44,786 bases of DNA. It comes from Verrucomicrobiota bacterium. Lineage in GTDB: Bacteria; Verrucomicrobiota; Verrucomicrobiae; Limisphaerales; UBA11358. This document shows, one piece after another, positions 531 to 44,089 of the stretch (within the stretch, counting starts at the first letter, position 1; the number at the start of each line of letters is the position of its first letter). The notes under the pieces are model-generated. The model made no database searches. It saw only the letters and a list, made by a program, of their open reading frames with translations, and was not told the origin of the DNA. Location of the stretch: NCBI GenBank assembly GCA_014860005.1, contig JACZKP010000010.1:1-44786 (forward strand). Direction: 5' to 3'. The position numbers and the translations under genes are program-made.

Positions 531-554
531 GGAGCGCCGACCTGTGGTCGGCTT
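531..554 (+). repeat. 24-bp palindromic element, family A (solo copy)
   Basis: The copy has the family ends GGAGCGCCG and CGGCTT around a self-complementary core (GCCGACC-TGT-GGTCGGC). It is the same stem variant as the copy at 21988-22011. It lies between the secreted-protein end and the convergent parE gene. Confidence 0.75.
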
Positions 555-10520: not shown

Positions 10521-10590
10521 TTGGAACGCCGGTCTCCGACCCGGCTCGTTTCTTTCGCACGACGCGCCGGATCGGAGACCGGCGCTCCAA
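10521..10590. repeat. Inverted pair of palindromic elements, family A (stem variant TCTCCGA)
   Basis: Two inverted copies, about 10523-10546 and 10565-10588, share GGARCGCCGG ends and cores of the type GGTCTCCGACC. The pair fills the 250-bp gap between the membrane-protein gene and the ABC ATPase. Both arms face opposite to the pairs near 20-27 kb. The closest relative is the pair at 44024-44089. Confidence 0.75.
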
Positions 10591-20292: not shown

Positions 20293-20460
20293 GGAGCGCC
20301 GGTAGCGGAACGCCGACGTGTCGTTGGCATTGGGGGTAACGATCGCCAATCATGCCCGAGTACGAACCAGAGAGTAACGCGAGCCGTGGGGGCGGGGCGT
20401 AAGCCGGTCACAGGCCGGCGCTCCAACGAAGACGAAGGAGCGCCGGCTTGCAGCCGGCTT
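20293..20460. repeat. Cluster of family A palindromic elements upstream of the antiporter
   Basis: A degenerate copy lies at 20307-20330 (stem GCCGACG-TGT-CGTTGGC), preceded by a half element at 20293-20300. Then comes an inverted pair, 20401-20424 and 20437-20460, with different stem variants (GGTCACAGGCC and GGCTTGCAGCC) separated by 12 bp. The pair is preceded by AGAGAGTAACGC, which also precedes the copy at 27636. Confidence 0.75.
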
Positions 20461-20524
20461 TGGGTGAGGAAAAGCCGTGAGGTTTTCCATGGATAGCCGT
20501 GGCAAACAGAAACCCGCACCCGCA

Positions 20525-20548
20525 AAGCCGACAGCCTGTCGGCGCTCC
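20525..20548 (+). repeat. Palindromic element, family A (stem GACAGGCTGTC)
   Basis: The core reads GCCGACAGCCTGTCGGC with family ends AAGCCG and GCGCTCC. This is the only copy in the window with the AGGCT-type core. It has no directly adjacent partner; the next copy is at 20675. Confidence 0.75.
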
Positions 20549-20674
20549 GTTCATGTTCACCCATTGCGGCCAGCGTTTGGCGGGGATACGGCTTGCTTTT
20601 CGATGCAAACCGGGCGTATAAGCGGGGCATGAAATCCTCTGGGGATTCCGGCTGGGACACGTTTTCCACGAGCT

Positions 20675-20698
20675 GGAGCGCCGACGTGTCGTCGGCTT
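20675..20698 (+). repeat. Palindromic element, family A (stem GACGTGTCGTC)
   Basis: It has GGAGCGCCG and CGGCTT ends around the core GCCGACGTGTCGTCGGC. The same stem variant occurs at 22104 and 22561. It lies about 70 bp upstream of the SUMF-family pseudogene start. Confidence 0.75.
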
Positions 20699-20745
20699 AT
20701 GGCGCAGGAAAACCCGCGACCTCCGAGTGCCAGGGCCCAAGCTGC

Positions 20746-21931
20746 ATGAACAGTAAAACCCACATCCAAAGCCGGTCGCAGACCGGCGCTCCGAGTTTGA
20801 GCGTCGCCCTCGTGGTGGCCTTGCTGGTCATGAGCTTTTCCATCGCCCACGCCGCGCCGCCGTTGGTTACCAATGTGCGCGCGGCGCAGCGGCCCGGGAC
20901 GCAACTGGTGGACGTTTACTACGACCTGGCGGACCCGGACAGCGCCACGCTTACGGTGAGCGTGACCGTGTAGCAACCGGAAGATCACCTGGAACGCCGG
21001 CGCGGATTGGCCGAACAAATTCTCCAGCAACGTCCGGTTCCGCATCACGGCCAGTGATGACACCGCTCCCTCCGGCATGGCGCTGATTCCCGCCGGGAGT
21101 TTCACGATGGGGGACACGTTCAACGAGGGTGAATCTCGGGAGTTGCCCTTGCACTCCGTCTATGTCTCCGCGTTTTACATGGACCGGACAGAGGTGACGA
21201 AGGCGTTGTGGGATGAGGTGTGTCAGTGGGCCACCAATCGTCCGGTGGAGTTACGTTACAACTTCGAGTATTGGGCGCTGGGGAAGGCGAACAATCATCC
21301 GGCGCACACGTTGACGTGGTATGACGCGGTGAAGTGGTGCAATGCGCGCAGCGAGAAGGAAGGGTGCGTGCCGGCTTATTACACCAGTGCGGCACAGACG
21401 ACGGCGTATCGGAGCGGGCGTGTAACTGTGCTGAATGATTGGGTGAAGTGGAATGCGGGTGGGTATCGGTTGCCGACGGAGGCGGAGTGGGAGAAGGCGG
21501 CGCGGGGCGGGAGCAGCGGGCAGCGGTTTCCGTCGGGGAACACGATTACGCACAGTCAGGCGAATTATTACAGTCGTACGAACTACGCCTACGATGTCAG
21601 CCCGACGCGAGAATACCACCCGGCCTACAATGATGGCGTTTATCCTTAAACGAGTCCGGTGGGTTCCTTCGCACCGAACGGGTATGGGTTGTATGACATG
21701 GAGGGGTATGTGATGGAGTGGTGCTGGGATTGGTGGTCGGGCAGTTATTACAGTTCGTCACCGCCAAGCGACCCGCGTGGTCCCACGTCTGGCACGGGCC
21801 TCGTGCTTCGCGGCGGCGGTTGGCTCAGCCAAGCGATAGTCTGCCGGTCGGCGGTCCGCTCTTTCTACGTCGGCCCGCTCAACCGGTACGAAACCCTCGG
21901 GTTCCGTTCGGTCCGGCCCGCAGGTCAGTGA
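20746..21931 (+). pseudogene. Secreted SUMF1/formylglycine-generating-enzyme-like protein, disrupted
   Basis: An ATG at 20746 opens a signal-peptide-like N-terminus (core LSVALVVALLVMSFSIAHA) followed by a verrucomicrobial N-terminal domain ending TLTVSVTV at a TAG (20971). The frame then shifts: the downstream frame reads KITWNAGADWPNKFSSNVRF, then the sulfatase-modifying-factor domain (MALIPAGSFTMGDTFNEGE, RLPTEAEWEKAARGG). It is stopped by TAA at 21647 and continues in the same frame with TSPVGSFAPNGYGLYDMEG and LRGGGW to 21931. So there is a deletion with frameshift plus one nonsense change (relatives read YPYTSP where this reads YP-stop-TSP). A palindromic element lies in the signal-peptide N-region. 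Confidence 0.8.
20769..20792 (+). repeat. Palindromic element, family A, inside the signal-peptide N-region
   Basis: In the frame of the SUMF-family gene it reads SRSQTGAP between the initiating MNSKTHIQ and the hydrophobic core. The core differs from the common variant by one change (GGTCGCAGACC). Confidence 0.8.
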
Positions 21932-21987
21932 GTTCCAGAACGGCTGGCCGGAGCAGGCGAGCCGGTGCGAGGGACGAGCGCAGTTTA

Positions 21988-22127
21988 GGAGCGCCGACCT
22001 GTGGTCGGCTTAAACGGTGGGCAAATGTGACGCGAACAAGAATGGAAAGTGGGTTGGCAAATCGCGCGCCCCAAGCCGGTCACAGACCGGAGCTCCGTCC
22101 GAGGGAGCGCCGACGTGTCGTCGGCTT
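21988..22127. repeat. Three family A palindromic elements upstream of the RAYT gene
   Basis: Copies are at 21988-22011 (stem GACCTGTGGTC), 22073-22096 (GGTCACAGACC, with GAGCTCC replacing GCGCTCC at one end) and 22104-22127 (GACGTGTCGTC). The last two form an inverted pair separated by 7 bp. The frame of the RAYT gene stays open across the pair, upstream of the chosen start. Confidence 0.8.
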
Positions 22128-22148
22128 TGGGCAAACGAGCAGGCTGCG

Positions 22149-23192
22149 ATGAACGAGATAAAACAAGAGCGTGGCGCGAGTCGTGAGGCGAAAAGTGTAA
22201 GCCGGTCACAGACCGGCGCTCCGGCAAAGTCGCGTCCGCAGCGGCAACGTTCGACGCCGCCGTACAATCCCGGCTTGCAGAAGCTCGTGGACGGCAAGCA
22301 GGCGTGGGCAATTCCGCTCGACGCCGAAGCCAGGGCGAAAGGTTTTCGCGGCTGGCATCAGCGCGGCTACCTGCCGCACTACGACGCGCCCGGCGTGACG
22401 CAGTTCGTGACGTTGCGTCTGGTGGATTCGCTGCCCGCATCGCGTCGTGGCGAGTGGGAACATCTGCTGAAAATCGAGACAGGAGCGCTGGTCTGTGGCC
22501 GGCATTCTCCTGCCGCGTACAGCAAAAGCCGGTCACAGACCGGCGCTCCACACCACGGCGGGAGCGCCGACGTGTCGTCGGCTTTTCGCGCGGCAAATCC
22601 CGACGGCACCAAAACGACGGCCGGCGGAGATGAGAACGCTCAAAGCCGTCCACAGGCCGGCGCTCCGGCGCGCGTTGCGGCGGGGCGGGAGCGTCGCCGG
22701 AAGCTGGAGGAATATCTGGATCGCGGTTTGGGCGAATGTTGGCTGCGGCAACCGACCATCGCGCAACTGACGGAAGATGCGCTGCGGTTTTTTGACGGCC
22801 AGCGCTACCAACTGGGCGCGTGGGTGGTCATGCCGAATCATGTGCATCTGCTGGTGGACGTGTGGGACACGCCGTTGTCGGAGTTGATCAAGAGTTGGAA
22901 GGGCTTCACGGCACGCGAAGCCAACAAGCTGCTGGGACGGAGCGGCGAGTTTTGGGAGCGGGAGTATTTGGACACGGTGATTGAGGATGAAGAACATCGG
23001 CAAACGGCGGTGCGCTATATCGAGAACAACCCGACGAAAGCAAAACTGGTGTTGGACCCGAAAGAATGGCCGTGGAGCAGCGCGCGATTTCGAGATGAGT
23101 ATGGGGTGCTGAAGTGTTCGGCGGAGCGCCGGCTTGCAGCCGGCTTAAATCGTGAGGAAACCCGCGAGGCGCGCAATTTCAAACGAGAATGA
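22149..23192 (+). CDS. REP-associated tyrosine transposase (RAYT, IS200-like Y1 family)
   Basis: RAYTs are single-strand HUH endonucleases related to TnpA of IS200 and are thought to mobilise REP palindromes. The 347-residue protein shows the RAYT N-terminal segment FRGWHQRGYLPHYDAPGVTQ, EEYLDRGLGECWLRQP, the HUH motif PNHVHLL with H231 and H233, then FWEREYLDTVIEDEEH (Y273) and RYIENNPTKA (Y290), either of which may be the catalytic tyrosine, and WPWSSARFRD at the end. Residues about 111-179, between KIET and RRRKLEEYL, are an extra segment made of four family A elements; further copies are at the N-terminus and at residues 325-333. I chose the ATG at 22149; the open frame starts earlier inside elements. 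Whether the inserted protein still cleaves DNA is unknown. Confidence 0.85.
   Translation: MNEIKQERGASREAKSVSRSQTGAPAKSRPQRQRSTPPYNPGLQKLVDGKQAWAIPLDAEARAKGFRGWHQRGYLPHYDAPGVTQFVTLRLVDSLPASRRGEWEHLLKIETGALVCGRHSPAAYSKSRSQTGAPHHGGSADVSSAFRAANPDGTKTTAGGDENAQSRPQAGAPARVAAGRERRRKLEEYLDRGLGECWLRQPTIAQLTEDALRFFDGQRYQLGAWVVMPNHVHLLVDVWDTPLSELIKSWKGFTAREANKLLGRSGEFWEREYLDTVIEDEEHRQTAVRYIENNPTKAKLVLDPKEWPWSSARFRDEYGVLKCSAERRLAAGLNREETREARNFKRE
22199..22222 (+). repeat. Palindromic element, family A, inside the RAYT N-terminus
   Basis: It is a consensus copy (AAGCCGGTCACAGACC plus GGCGCTCC) read in frame as SRSQTGAP near residue 20 of the RAYT protein. Confidence 0.85.
22482..22666. repeat. Four family A palindromic elements inside the RAYT coding sequence
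   Basis: Copies are at 22482-22505 (degenerate, GGTCTGTGGCC), 22526-22549 (GGTCACAGACC), 22561-22584 (GACGTGTCGTC) and 22643-22666 (GTCCACAGGCC). The middle two form an inverted pair 11 bp apart. Together they account for nearly all of the 70-residue insertion between conserved RAYT blocks, and all are translated without a stop (SRSQTGAP, SADVSSA, SRPQAGAP). Confidence 0.85.
23123..23146 (+). repeat. Palindromic element, family A, near the 3' end of the RAYT gene
   Basis: The stem is GGCTTGCAGCC, the same variant as at 20437. In frame it reads AERRLAAGL, close to the RAYT C-terminus after the conserved WPWSSARF block. Confidence 0.8.
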
Positions 23193-23217
23193 ACACGATT
23201 CGTATGGGGAGAGCGCA

Positions 23218-23366
23218 AAGCCGGTCACAGACCGGCGCTCCAACGAAGGAGCGCCGACATGTTGTCGGCTTAAGACTCTCGCGGGCCAGAGTCATTTGAA
23301 CGCCAAACAGAAAGCATGCATGAACCGTAATTCGCGCACTCGAAGCCGGTCACAGACCGGCGCTCC
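23218..23366. repeat. Three family A palindromic elements downstream of the RAYT gene
   Basis: An inverted pair, 23218-23241 (GGTCACAGACC) and 23248-23271 (GACATGTTGTC), is separated by 6 bp. A further consensus copy lies at 23343-23366, after a short MNRNSRTR-coding stretch that resembles the start of the pseudogene at 20746 (MNSK...SRSQTGAP). The stretch 23193-23405 is otherwise empty. Confidence 0.8.
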
Positions 23367-23405
23367 GTGCGGGGCAAGCGTCGAACGCCCAGTCAGGATC
23401 GAACT

Positions 23406-24380
23406 ATGAAGCCTAAACTTTCTTCACGGCACGGAAGCAGGATCGTTTCGTGGGTGACTTGGCAGGTGGCCGGGATGTTCCTTTGCGTGGCGTGTGCGAA
23501 CGCCGCCAGCAGCACGGCATTCTCACCCGTTATTACGGTGGATACACGCGTCGTAGCCATCGCGGTGTCCGGCCGGGTGCTGGACGCGGCCAGCCGCGCG
23601 CCGGTCAGCGGCGCAGCGGTGTCGCTGGCGGGGCAGAACACCAGTAGTTCCAGCGCGGGCTTGTTCAGTTTCGCGAACGTGGCTGCGAGCGGCAACACGC
23701 TGGCGGTGAGCAAAAGCGGTTACGCCACTTACACCGGCACCGTGCCCGTCCCGGCGGGGGCCAATGCGGTCATGCTGCCGGATGTTCTGCTACAGGCTGC
23801 GCCAGTGGGAAACAAGCCGGTGGTGACGGGAGTGCGCACCCGGCATGAAGGAATGTTCTTGGGCGGCATCGCCATGTTGAACGATTTCACGGCCACGGTG
23901 AACTGGCAGGGGCTTGCGCCCAATCAGGTGCGGTTTTATGTGAACGGCAATCTGGCGGCGACGCGGACCACCAGCGGGACCGAGGTAACAGTGACATTGG
24001 ACATGGGGCTGGGTTTCGCGCCGAGTTTTTCGCCCGGCGCGAACACGGTGCGGGTGGTGGCCGAAGCGGGGAACGGCGCAACCTCAGCGCCCTACGATAT
24101 GACGGTAAGGGTGATTCCCACGCCGTTCTGGTTGACCGGCCTGCCCGCGAGCATCTTGGGCGCGGAGGAAGCGACTTATTCATTCCACCTCACCTATCCC
24201 TCGGATAAGTATCCGGTGAAGGCGCTGCAGAACATTTCGTTCCTGGGCGATTTCGGCTGGGATTTGCAGTTCAAAGGCGGCTACGAATATGCGCTGGTTC
24301 CGGGGAATGGCTGCTATACGCCGGGGTGCAGCCCACAAAATCCAAGAAGCGGGTGGGAAAGCGTCCGCACAGTTCGCTGA
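23406..24380 (+). CDS. N-terminal part of a frameshifted large secreted protein (carboxypeptidase-regulatory-like domain)
   Basis: The ATG at 23406 starts a signal-peptide-like segment (QVAGMFLCVACANAAS). Residues about 55-125 form a carboxypeptidase-regulatory-like beta domain (VSGRVLDAASRAPVSGAAVS). After a beta-sandwich region the frame ends at 24380. The next frame (24326-27475) continues the same protein without a signal peptide, so one base was probably gained or lost between about 24310 and 24365. It may be a pseudogene, a sequencing error or a frameshifting site. The likely product is a surface or exported protein of unknown ligand. Confidence 0.65.
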   Translation: MKPKLSSRHGSRIVSWVTWQVAGMFLCVACANAASSTAFSPVITVDTRVVAIAVSGRVLDAASRAPVSGAAVSLAGQNTSSSSAGLFSFANVAASGNTLAVSKSGYATYTGTVPVPAGANAVMLPDVLLQAAPVGNKPVVTGVRTRHEGMFLGGIAMLNDFTATVNWQGLAPNQVRFYVNGNLAATRTTSGTEVTVTLDMGLGFAPSFSPGANTVRVVAEAGNGATSAPYDMTVRVIPTPFWLTGLPASILGAEEATYSFHLTYPSDKYPVKALQNISFLGDFGWDLQFKGGYEYALVPGNGCYTPGCSPQNPRSGWESVRTVR

Positions 24381-27300
24381 CGAATCCCAAGTTTTTCGCC
24401 GGTAGCACCGAGATCAAATTCGGGGTGAAGGCGCAGGCGGAAGGCACGGCCACGCTGTCCCAGGGCATCGTGCTGAACCAGGCCGGCGTGGTGGTGTTCG
24501 TGGACGTACAGCAGGAACTGCTGGCGTTCTACTTGTCGGATTATGTGCCGGGGGCGCAGTGGTTGCGAATTCTGGATCGGTTGAAATGGTTGGGCGTGGA
24601 TGTAAACAGCGTCCAGCGGGTGACGGTGTATGGACTGCTGAATGGGGAGGTTCAATTGATGCTCCAATTTCAGCCCGAGCCGGTCCACTTCAGCGGGGCG
24701 GACATCAATCTGGCCTTGGGATTGGAAGCCGCGTACGAACCGAACATCAAAGTGGCCAAGATGCGGATTTACGTGGGCGGAAAGGTGGACGGGGAGTTTC
24801 AGATTCCGTATCCGAATCCCGCGTTCCGGCTCAAGCGCATCACCGGGAGCGTCTATGGCGGGGTGAGCATTGAATCGTGGCTTTTCGATATGGAGGAGGA
24901 GTTCGTCATCTTGCAAGGAACCTTGTGGCAAGGTGCGAGCGGGGCGCTGGCCATGAGAGCGGTGGGGACGGTGGAGGAAGACGAAACGATCACGCTGATC
25001 CTGCCGGCGGGCAGCCGGGAATTTGGGGTGCGCAACCGGGATTACTTGCTGGCCGGCCCGGAGCGGTTCACGGCGGAACAGTCGGTTATGCAACGAGCAC
25101 GCGACGGCCACGTGGACACGCTCACGGATTTCCGGCGCATGGGTGTGCCGCCTGCCAGAGGCTCAGATGCGAAAAAGGAAGGCGATGTTTCTGCCGCTGG
25201 GGACCCGCCGCCCCCGGCGAATCAGGCGGACTTGACGTTGGTGGAGAATGTCTTTCCCGGCGCGGATCCGGCGATGGCCGGCAAGGAACAGGAGTTGATG
25301 CTGCTCTACGTGACCGACAACGGCAGCCCGGACGATCTTCAGTTCACGGACATCCGGTGGACACGCTTTGACGGAACGAACTGGAGCGCGCCCGCGACGA
25401 TTCATACAAACACGCAGGGGGAGTTCTCACCGCAAGTCGCTTTCGATGGCCACGGAGATGCCATCGCAGTATGGGAGCGCGTGGCGGACCCGAATTTCAA
25501 CACGCCCGACCTCATGGCGATGGCGGCGCAGATGGAGATTGTCTGGGCCAAGTGGAATCACGCCAGCGGTCTGTGGTCCACGCCCGTACCGCTGACCAGC
25601 AACGGCTATCTGGATCACGCGCCGTTGCTTTGCGGGCCGATGGCGGATGGCAGTGTGCTGGCCGTGTGGACGGCGAACACTTCAAATCTGCTCATGGGCA
25701 CAAACGGCGCGAGCAGTCAGGTGCAATGGGCGCAATGGAGTCCGGCGAGTCAGAATTGGTCGGTCCCGCAAACCTTGCTGGCGGATTTGCCGTATCGCCT
25801 GTCGCAATCGCTATCCGGCGTCAGCAATGTGGCGGTGTATGCGTGGACGCGGGATTTGGATGGGGATCAGAACACGGTGGCGGATCAGCAGGTGTTTTAT
25901 CGCGCGTGGAGCAACGGAGTATGGAGCGCAGCCACGCAGTTCACAACTAACACGGATGGCAATCGAAATGCGCGGGTTTCAGTCGGGCCGGCCGGACAGA
26001 GCTATCTGGTTTGGCAGAGTGGCACGAATCTGGTGTTGAGCCGGGATTTTTCGACCAATGCAGCTTTGGTTCGGTTGGACTCGCAGACTGCGGGCTTCGC
26101 CGATTACGCGCTGACCGTTGGTCCGGCGGGGAATCTGGCGTTGCTCTGGCAGGACATGGCCGAGACGGGATCAGACGCGCATTACCGGGTGCTCGATCCC
26201 GCGTCGGCGACATGGAGTCAGGACGCGCTGATGTTCAATGATTCGCCGTTGGAGCGGTCGTTTGCGCCGGTGTGGGATGACGTAGGAAATCTGACGGTGG
26301 CCTACAACAAGGTGGAGATCATTTACACGAACAAGACGGTGGAATTGGAAGGCGGGGGCACGGTGACGATTACCAACGTGCCGCAGCCGGGCCGCGTGGA
26401 TTTGTGCGTGACCAAGCGGGCGCTGGTGAAAGACCTCGCGCTGATGCCGGGCGATTTCACAGCGAGCGCGGACAATTATCTGCCAGGCGCGGCGGTCACG
26501 CTGTCGGCCACCGTGCGGAACATCGGCGACCTGGCGGTGAGCAATGCGGTGGTGGCGTTCTACCAGGGCAATCCGACCAACGGCGGCGTGTTGATTACGA
26601 ACATCACGATCTCAGGCTGGCTGGATGGCGCGGCGACGAACACCCTCAGCGCCTTGTGGGTTGTGCCCGAGCCGGCGACGAATCATGTCCTGTATGGCGT
26701 GGCCGATCCGACGGGGGTGATTGCGGAGTTTGATGAATCCAACAACGCGCTTTCCTTGAGCATCGGCGGAACAGACCTGGCGGTGTCGCTGATTTCTCAT
26801 GCTGCCGAGACGAATGGCGCGGTGCGGGTGATCGCGCAGGTACAGAATCTTGGTGCGCCTTCAGCCACGAGTTCGGTGCTGGCAATCCGGCGCGCGGGCG
26901 AAACGAGCACACCGCTGGCGACGGTCGCAGTGCCGTTGCTCGAACCGGGGCGGCTGGCGACGGTGGCGTTGGATTTGCCGCCGGGTACGCAACCCGAGGG
27001 TGAGGCGGTCTATCGGCTGTTCGCGGACGAAACGAAAGTGGTTTCCGACGTGGATACGAACAACAACACCACGGCGTTTGCCGTGAACTTGTGGGTGGAT
27101 TCGGATGGCGACGGGCTGCCGGACAGTTTCGAGAACCAATACACCTTCCTGGACCCGAACGATCCGGACGATGCCGTGCTGGATTACGACGAGGATGGGG
27201 TGAGCAATCTGGACGAGTATCGCGCTGGCACGTCACCGGACGATCCGCTTTCGTATCTGCGACTGACGGCGATCACTGTCGGCGGGAGCGAAGGGGTGGA

Positions 27301-27475
27301 GATTGCGTGGGGGTCGTCGCCGAACAAGCTCTACACCGTGCAGCGGTCAGCAGCATTGGGGGCTGGGTTCACCAACCTGGTGGAACATCTCCAGTCCACG
27401 CCGCCGGAAAATGTTTATCTCGACACCTCGGCTACCAATGCCGCTGCGTTCTTCTATCGCATCATGGTGGAGTGA
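24326..27475 (+). CDS. C-terminal part of the frameshifted large secreted protein (CARDB domains, Asp-rich calcium-binding-like segment)
   Basis: This 1049-codon frame overlaps the end of the preceding one and lacks a start with a signal peptide; conserved-looking sequence resumes at HSSLTNPKFFAG. It contains a long region of repeated beta-propeller-like strands (WSAPATIHTNTQGEFSPQ, WNHASGLWSTPV), two CARDB-like adhesion domains (about residues 705-905) and an Asp-rich stretch DSDGDGLPD and DYDEDGVSNLDEY like thrombospondin type 3 repeats that bind calcium. It ends with the short C-terminal module (FFYRIMVE) seen on other secreted proteins here. The intact protein would be about 1360 residues. 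Confidence 0.7.
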   Translation: MQPTKSKKRVGKRPHSSLTNPKFFAGSTEIKFGVKAQAEGTATLSQGIVLNQAGVVVFVDVQQELLAFYLSDYVPGAQWLRILDRLKWLGVDVNSVQRVTVYGLLNGEVQLMLQFQPEPVHFSGADINLALGLEAAYEPNIKVAKMRIYVGGKVDGEFQIPYPNPAFRLKRITGSVYGGVSIESWLFDMEEEFVILQGTLWQGASGALAMRAVGTVEEDETITLILPAGSREFGVRNRDYLLAGPERFTAEQSVMQRARDGHVDTLTDFRRMGVPPARGSDAKKEGDVSAAGDPPPPANQADLTLVENVFPGADPAMAGKEQELMLLYVTDNGSPDDLQFTDIRWTRFDGTNWSAPATIHTNTQGEFSPQVAFDGHGDAIAVWERVADPNFNTPDLMAMAAQMEIVWAKWNHASGLWSTPVPLTSNGYLDHAPLLCGPMADGSVLAVWTANTSNLLMGTNGASSQVQWAQWSPASQNWSVPQTLLADLPYRLSQSLSGVSNVAVYAWTRDLDGDQNTVADQQVFYRAWSNGVWSAATQFTTNTDGNRNARVSVGPAGQSYLVWQSGTNLVLSRDFSTNAALVRLDSQTAGFADYALTVGPAGNLALLWQDMAETGSDAHYRVLDPASATWSQDALMFNDSPLERSFAPVWDDVGNLTVAYNKVEIIYTNKTVELEGGGTVTITNVPQPGRVDLCVTKRALVKDLALMPGDFTASADNYLPGAAVTLSATVRNIGDLAVSNAVVAFYQGNPTNGGVLITNITISGWLDGAATNTLSALWVVPEPATNHVLYGVADPTGVIAEFDESNNALSLSIGGTDLAVSLISHAAETNGAVRVIAQVQNLGAPSATSSVLAIRRAGETSTPLATVAVPLLEPGRLATVALDLPPGTQPEGEAVYRLFADETKVVSDVDTNNNTTAFAVNLWVDSDGDGLPDSFENQYTFLDPNDPDDAVLDYDEDGVSNLDEYRAGTSPDDPLSYLRLTAITVGGSEGVEIAWGSSPNKLYTVQRSAALGAGFTNLVEHLQSTPPENVYLDTSATNAAAFFYRIMVE

Positions 27476-27507
27476 CCAGGTTTCGCCAACCTTGAGGCGG
27501 GGTGCGT

Positions 27508-27565
27508 AAGCCGGTCACAGGCCGGCGCTCCTTCCGCGCAAGGAGCGCCGACATGTTGTCGGCTT
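27508..27565. repeat. Inverted pair of family A palindromic elements
   Basis: Copies 27508-27531 (GGTCACAGGCC) and 27542-27565 (GACATGTTGTC) are 10 bp apart, the same variant combination as at 23218-23271 apart from one base. The pair follows the large secreted protein by 32 bp. Confidence 0.85.
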
Positions 27566-27635
27566 TAGGGGTAACGAAACCAGTTATGTCCGACCCCAAA
27601 GCAGAGAGTAACGCAGGCCGAGGAGCAGGGTGCGC

Positions 27636-27659
27636 AAGCCGGTCACAGACCGGCGCTCC
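27636..27659 (-). repeat. Palindromic element, family A, forming the 3' end of the DUF167 gene
   Basis: On the minus strand the element supplies the codons RSAGL and the TGA stop of the DUF167 gene. It is preceded on the plus strand by AGAGAGTAACGC (27604-27615), also found before the 20401 copy. Confidence 0.8.
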
Positions 27660-44023: not shown

Positions 44024-44089
44024 GGAGCGCCGATCTCCGATCCGGCGCGTAGAAATCAAGGGGTGAGCCGGGTCGGAGACCGGCGCTCC
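44024..44089. repeat. Inverted pair of palindromic elements, family A (stem TCTCCGA)
   Basis: Copies 44024-44046 (GCCGATCTCCGATCCGGC core) and 44066-44089 (GGTCGGAGACC) are 19 bp apart and face outward like the pair at 10521-10590. They lie between the rhomboid and dnaJ genes, and could form a strong hairpin in the rhomboid leader. Confidence 0.75.

Follow-up and report, generated by a model that had tools for sequence, protein, structure and literature searches.

A REP/RAYT system with complementary, variable stems and head-to-head units in a Verrucomicrobiota genome

What kind of element is the family of small hairpins that crowds around a transposase gene in contig JACZKP010000010.1 of a Verrucomicrobiota bacterium? 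The repeats and the gene in the 44.8-kb stretch of DNA analyzed here (the window; 60% G+C) are a system of repetitive extragenic palindromes (REPs) and a REP-associated tyrosine transposase (RAYT). The system is real and well supported, comes from a poorly studied lineage, and is ordinary in kind. In its hairpins the foot GGAGC and the basal stem are fixed and the loop usually begins with T, while three distal stem pairs vary yet stay complementary. Both here and in some relatives, the REPs form head-to-head units with favored lengths that cluster at the RAYT gene and also occur within it, and most units with a long spacer carry two arms of different stem. The RAYT is a "domesticated" transposase, and these hairpins are probably the DNA that it mobilizes.

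The transposase named in the first-pass annotation is confirmed as an intact RAYT. Its open frame starts at 22017, and the protein matches the Pfam domain Y1_Tnp (PF01797; E 2.6e-09) and the NCBIfam RAYT model NF047646, with a score of 82.1 bits against a cut-off of 80. When the A2 profile was compared with the PDB, the best match by sequence was 4er8, the Escherichia coli RAYT-hairpin complex (E 2.5e-09). The same entry is the top fold match of the predicted structure (E 1.2e-05), which has a mean predicted local distance difference test score (pLDDT) of 68, a predicted template modeling score (pTM) of 0.60, and a confident core with 105 residues at ≥90. These matches also bear out the reading of gene and hairpins together as REP/RAYT. 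The few database matches that carry an organism name are records from Verrucomicrobiota, and most of the nearest genome loci are likewise from Verrucomicrobia. A scan of viral contigs yielded no relative.

The repeat family itself was counted by searching the window for the frame GGAGCGCCG-N9-CGGCTT. We found 19 exact copies and 21 with at most two mismatches; in 30 dinucleotide shuffles there were no exact copies and a mean of 0.53 (maximum 2) at the looser threshold. A copy consists of the foot GGAGC, a 7-bp stem starting GCCG, a 3-base loop, and TT. All seven stem pairs are formed in 16 of the 20 tabled copies and six pairs in the other four (20401, 22073, 22643, and 27508), in line with the first-pass statement that copies are nearly always self-complementary; the 21st copy (22482) is decayed. 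Twenty of the 21 fall inside 20.2-27.7 kb, about 16% of the window, which matches the cluster of some 20 copies first noted at 20.3-27.7 kb. The first total of about 26 is reached only if four bulged 25-mers (10523, 10564, 44024, and 44065) and a degenerate copy recognized by eye near 20307 are added to the 21. All six inner stem types named at that stage are present, GATC/GATC solely in the bulged copy at 44024.

How are the copies arranged? The usual unit is a head-to-head pair with GGAG outside and a spacer of 58-71 bp (8 of 8 window pairs); a ninth pair, with the decayed arm at 22482, has a spacer of 20 bp. Adjacent units meet tail to tail with 6-12 bp between them, which corrects the earlier description of inverted pairs 6-19 bp apart. 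Seven of the eight pairs share a polarity, with GACN or GGCT as the left arm and GGTC, or GGCC as a variant of it, as the right; the exception is the pair at 20437-20548 (left GGCT, right GACA). Most units, although not all, at the RAYT loci L141, L143, and L146 have the polarity seen in the window. Among the copies listed, 16 genomes and the window together gave 119 head-to-head pairs, with gaps of 17-20 bp in 29, 58-75 bp in 70, 29-49 bp in 18, 11 bp in one, and 106 bp in one.

We assessed stem pairing in all 533 listed copies, which come from the window and 31 genomes and represent part of the copies in the richest genomes. The outer frame was fixed by the search, so its constancy in this set, including that of the basal stem GCCG/CGGC, is by construction. 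In 452 of the 533 copies, every one of the three inner pairs is Watson-Crick, compared with a mean of 95.9 and a maximum of 122 when the 3' arms were shuffled, and 77 of 144 distinct 9-mer cores are fully paired compared with 10.1 (maximum 22). The stems thus covary once copies are collected, as had been anticipated from the window. There are sixteen paired stem types; 13 are among the 16 possible purine-pyrimidine-N kinds, and stems of this form make up 439 of the 452 paired copies. The loop begins with T in 470 of 533.

Do the two arms of a unit carry different stems more often than expected? Among the 89 of 119 pairs with a spacer longer than 25 bp, the stems differ in 82, against 56.8 expected with arms shuffled within genomes (0 of 5,000 shuffles as high); where both arms are perfectly paired, 66 of 73 are heterotypic against 43.9. 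Counted as distinct genome-and-stem-pair families, heterotypic pairs account for 28 of 32 with a long gap and 14 of 20 with a short one. In predicted single-strand folding of 39 long units, the energy of the arm-to-arm form minus that of the two hairpins averages -3.6 kcal/mol as found and -16.9 kcal/mol for versions with identical arms. It is trivial that any arm difference weakens the pairing; it is not trivial that different arms are in excess. Among 33 RAYT loci that hold head-to-head GGAG pairs, different arms alone occur in 21, identical arms alone in 9, and both kinds in 3. Spacers are related within genomes, with 77% identity in G124 (14 of 18 listed GCA/GCT units; 58% shuffled) and 61% in G226 (12 of 13 listed pairs; 54% shuffled), and the arms are 96-99% alike in both. 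Because exact frame and, for the most part, stem pair were the criteria by which these units were chosen, arm identity is here largely by construction, and we gave little weight to constant arms beside drifting spacers as proof that the difference is maintained.

How closely do the repeats follow the RAYT among relatives? The exact frame was found in 78 of 245 genomes of the order to which genome G001 belongs, with up to 138 copies, compared with 0, rarely 1, per strand for a reversed control pattern. Of the 17 exact copies in the whole G001 genome, 10 lie in a 2.8-kb stretch at its RAYT, and G185 has 10 of its 33 copies on the 4.3-kb contig bearing its RAYT. Over 80 RAYT loci, a few of which overlap and some of which are without any hairpin, there are 208 perfect hairpins with the foot G[GT]AG in the 115 kb beside RAYTs and 76 in the 803 kb lying beyond 2 kb from the gene; the densities are 1.81 per kb up to 700 bp from the gene and 0.095 per kb at the greater distance, a difference of ~19-fold. 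The clustering around the RAYT first noted in the window is supported. The exact frame occurs at just 4 of the 80 best RAYT loci and at 6 of 20 further loci. Among the 60 RAYT loci listed, most hairpins begin GGAGCGC; the more distant RAYTs L150-L152 (~43% identical to the query core) have GTAGCGC in its place, so that the second foot base switches within the wider RAYT group. As a tendency, the hairpin is particular to each RAYT lineage, and REPs of other frames accompany many RAYTs of the group.

The presence of a RAYT is only a loose predictor of the repeats. An A1-type RAYT (E ≤ 1e-15) was found in 30 of 45 genomes with at least three exact copies and in 80 of the 200 others (Fisher p = 0.0015, odds ratio 3; uncorrected for kinship and genome size); the search scored at most nine candidates per genome, so a negative result in it is not firm. 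Among the 15 genomes that have at least three copies but no A1 match, 12 match NF047646 at E ≤ 0.001, only two of them over the cut-off, and the same search was also positive in 6 of 14 control genomes; the other three (G027, G192, and G210) have no NF047646 match at this threshold. Ten RAYT-like loci of 2.2-3.5 kb from A1-negative genomes (L181-L190) hold no frame REP. Absence of a RAYT is weak evidence because the genomes identified by record title are largely metagenome assemblies, which tend to break at repeats. The first-pass check of whether genomes without the RAYT lack the family gave a mixed outcome: the RAYT is commoner in copy-rich genomes, but G150, with 91 copies, has no A1-type RAYT found, and a plain presence/absence link was set aside as only loose.

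A point not in the first-pass annotation is that REP copies lie within the gene. In the window RAYT, in-frame REP-coded stretches occur close to both termini and in a loop that precedes the HuH motif (Table 1). In the predicted structure, pLDDT is below 50 at residues 113-162 and 164-173 of the loop insert and mostly near or below 50 at the two REP-coded ends. Among the best 120 of 3,562 homolog matches, 118 have readable anchors, and 43 of these carry an insert of 17-122 aa at the pre-HuH loop. A REP-peptide motif occurs in this loop in 40 of 119 rows (the window protein twice), and the longest inserts read as up to three REP pairs. The RAYTs L013, L019, L030, and L039 form a second group whose pre-HuH loop contains a different REP, one of its own; L009 and L027 have their own REPs in another loop, one that L010, L024, L034, and L012 lack, and the reading frame of L027 stops early, downstream of its insert. 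A single origin of the insert was set aside: a quick tree of the 118 homologs needs 16 changes, although only 3 are forced by starred branches and the balance of gains and losses is unsure.

Table 1. Positions of the RAYT gene, the REP units, and single REPs in the window
Feature	Coordinates	Strand	Description	Evidence
RAYT (TnpA-REP)	22149..23192	+	347 aa from ATG at 22149; HuH motif NHVH; Y motif YIENNP	Pfam, NCBIfam, PDB matches
REP-coded insert	22479..22670	+	about residues 111-174, upstream of HuH, predicted disordered	homolog alignment, pLDDT
Unit 1	20307..20424	+	left arm degenerate (by eye); right 20401-20424, GGCC/GACC, one mismatch	
Unit 2	20437..20548	+	left GGCT/AGCC (20437-20460); right GACA/TGTC (20525-20548)	
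Unit 3	20675..20792	+	left GACG/CGTC; right GGTC/GACC (20769-20792)	
Unit 4	21988..22096	+	left GACC/GGTC; right GGTC/GACC (22073-22096, one frame mismatch)	
Unit 5	22104..22222	+	left GACG/CGTC; right GGTC/GACC (22199-22222), in RAYT frame as SRSQTGAP near N-terminus	
Unit 6	22482..22549	+	within RAYT frame; left decayed (22482-22505); right GGTC/GACC (22526-22549); gap 20 bp	
Unit 7	22561..22666	+	within RAYT frame; left GACG/CGTC; right GGCC/GGAC (one mismatch)	
Unit 8	23123..23241	+	left GGCT/AGCC, in frame near RAYT C-terminus; right GGTC/GACC (23218-23241)	
Unit 9	23248..23366	+	left GACA/TGTC; right GGTC/GACC	
Unit 10	27542..27659	+	left GACA/TGTC; right GGTC/GACC	
Single REP	531..554	+	GACC/GGTC, outside cluster	
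Single REP	27508..27531	-	GGCC/GACC, one mismatch	

How does this system compare with those already described? Earlier publications already report free complementary stems, unexplained heterodimers, REPs within genes, and, for subclass 2.4 RAYTs, REPs inserted in frame. According to the text of Di Nocera et al. (2013, PMC3733652), most families of the GTAG REP super-family split into sub-families with alternative complementary stem residues, and heterodimers are common, a preference that "has no obvious explanation." The super-family is also like the window's repeats in its head-to-head dimers and intragenic REPs, and Opitutus terrae, one of the Verrucomicrobia, is named there as rich in such elements. 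The first-pass view that interchangeable stems within a conserved frame are something unusual is accordingly not supported, and free stems in a fixed frame were dropped as a new principle. The foot differs, being GGAG here and GTAG, GYAG, GYRG, GTRG, GTMG, or GTGG in that text, its Figure 1 (with the O. terrae families) aside.

As described in the text of Quentin et al. (2018, PMC6006769), subclass 2.4 TnpA-REP proteins (Bertels group 4) have the key motifs NH[IFV]H, WQ, and YIxNNP, flanking REPs, and in-frame REPs in the gene. The window protein has NHVH and YIENNP, with WE as its W motif (WQ in homologs P0071 and P0105); inverted REPs flank its gene, as they do at most but not all of the 80 RAYT loci, and REPs are likewise inserted in frame. 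With two of three key motifs fitting, the window's REPs appear to belong to a RAYT system close to this subclass, and in-frame REPs were dropped as a novelty. The differences are that double-foot REPs of subclass 2.4 have the foot GT[AG]G in that text, and that their inserts generally lie between HuH and Y, whereas here they are upstream of HuH. Neither "Verrucomicrob" nor "GGAG" occurs in the main text of PMC6006769, whose supplementary figures were outside the comparison. Neither the GGAG foot nor inserts upstream of HuH were found in the text of the REP/RAYT literature examined, figures and supplements aside, and we do not claim the GGAG-foot family as undescribed; in a literature search on Verrucomicrobiota with RAYTs or repetitive extragenic palindromes, only PMC3733652 was relevant by title.

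Two other systems are alike in part. REPINs (REP doublets forming hairpins; Bertels and Rainey 2011, PMC3116915) are described in the text as inverted REP doublets with a preferred spacer length that replicate as a unit tied to a RAYT, and the 119 pairs above are likewise inverted doublets of preferred length. For REPIN doublets, the prediction is a single long hairpin formed by pairing between the arms; in the units described here, the differing stems are predicted to weaken that pairing. The REP y/z bacterial interspersed mosaic elements of E. coli and their TnpA-REP, as portrayed in the text of PMC8266576, share pairs of different REP types and an upper stem whose role is structural and non-specific; the stem of E. 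coli REPs is bulged, and their foot is GTAG, compared with GGAG in the window REPs.

Why should the arms of a unit differ? We lean slightly toward a reading in which the RAYT recognizes the foot, basal stem, and loop together with the shape of the distal stem, the arms differ so as to keep two hairpins, and REPs inside the gene are tolerated. The enzyme would cut single-stranded DNA at head-to-head units, as IS200/IS605 relatives do. Were the distal stem read mainly as shape, compensated stem changes would be tolerated for that reason; the arms would differ because identical arms would pair into one long hairpin, hiding the two small hairpins that the enzyme must bind; and REPs within the gene would be kept because the insertions fall in disordered loops and preserve the frame. 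The text of PMC8266576 reports that E. coli TnpA-REP tolerates an upper stem replaced by its complementary sequence, whereas alterations at two positions of the lower stem are not tolerated, and that a mismatched middle of the perfect stem abolishes activity of the Stenotrophomonas maltophilia enzyme. These genomes offer numerous units in which the frame is fixed and the stems are free, which makes it testable whether the RAYT needs two separate hairpins and provides a natural alignment for which hairpin bases such an enzyme may recognize.

A number of observations weigh against this reading. In the same text, swapping central and upper stem letters costs the S. maltophilia enzyme, which acts on perfect-stemmed REPs like those here, some of its cleavage, and swapping the three bottom positions raises it, the reverse of the proposed recognition. 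Short pairs (11-20 bp) show little excess of different arms (19 of 30 heterotypic vs. 16.1). Two hairpins are outright favored in only 12 of the 39 long units folded, the long arm-to-arm hairpin prevailing in 27, and all four short units folded still prefer the long hairpin. Nine of the 33 RAYT loci with such pairs have identical arms only, and not every stem is purine-pyrimidine-N, the main exception being AGC (11 copies; G021, G054, G096, and G151). The units share descent with drifted spacers, so the copies are not independent. Finally, one RAYT locus each of the repeat-rich genomes G124, G226, G231, G150, and G007 is without a frame REP, and in the first three it has a different REP.

Would the host, instead of the transposase, favor heterotypic arms? 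Under such selection, proposed in the text of PMC3733652, identical arms would give long hairpins that obstruct replication or are eliminated by nucleases of the SbcCD type, so that the surviving pairs would be mostly different-armed. The predicted folding cost fits this as well as it fits recognition by the enzyme, while identical-armed short pairs, which would also form long hairpins, persist in six genomes (11 of 30) and count against it without being decisive; we regard host selection as possible but doubtful. Much the same standing goes to a founder effect, in which one different-armed unit chanced to spread in each genome, as the related spacers within genomes and the one or two dominant stem pairs of several genomes would suggest. 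Yet the stem pairs vary among genomes and are different-armed again in the 28 of 32 long-gap families, and heterotypic pairs occur in 24 of 33 RAYT loci, which by record title come from several phyla (21 with only such pairs).

Pairing could also persist without selection if one arm templates the correction of the other. Such template switching occurs in quasi-palindromes, and it would agree with the small number of copies, 63 of 533, that have exactly one non-Watson-Crick inner pair; alone, it leaves the purine-pyrimidine-N bias and the differing arm types within a unit unexplained, and we think it unlikely. It is very improbable that the repeats are RNA elements (terminators or mRNA stabilizers) linked to the RAYT only incidentally: their stems would form in RNA too, and REPs are said in the text of PMC3733652 to act so elsewhere, but hairpin density is 19-fold higher beside RAYTs over the 80 loci. 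A bolder reading, which we offer as speculative and improbable, is that the mobile unit of this RAYT group has two real ends in place of a single REPIN hairpin: its left and right hairpins would be distinct, and their orthogonal stems would keep them separate, as with the ends of IS200/IS605; the transposase gene would repeatedly have taken its own ends into frame (up to three units). If so, gene and protein would carry the substrate, and the enzyme could act on its own gene.

Several minor features accompany the system. Beside the REP arrays, genes at 21077-22152 (FGE-sulfatase-like) and 23367-27475 (CARDB/CarboxypepD_reg) look split over frames, from decay or sequencing error. A second, shorter type of REP pair, made of 25-mers with one additional stem base and a gap of ~16 bp, is present at 10523-10588 and 44024-44089. 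At 1959-2058 and 867-951 there are inverted hairpin pairs tagged GTAG or GTGG and of other sequence, perhaps another REP family. At locus L186 (G017), a GTAG-tagged REP array with stem types again alternating adjoins another RAYT.

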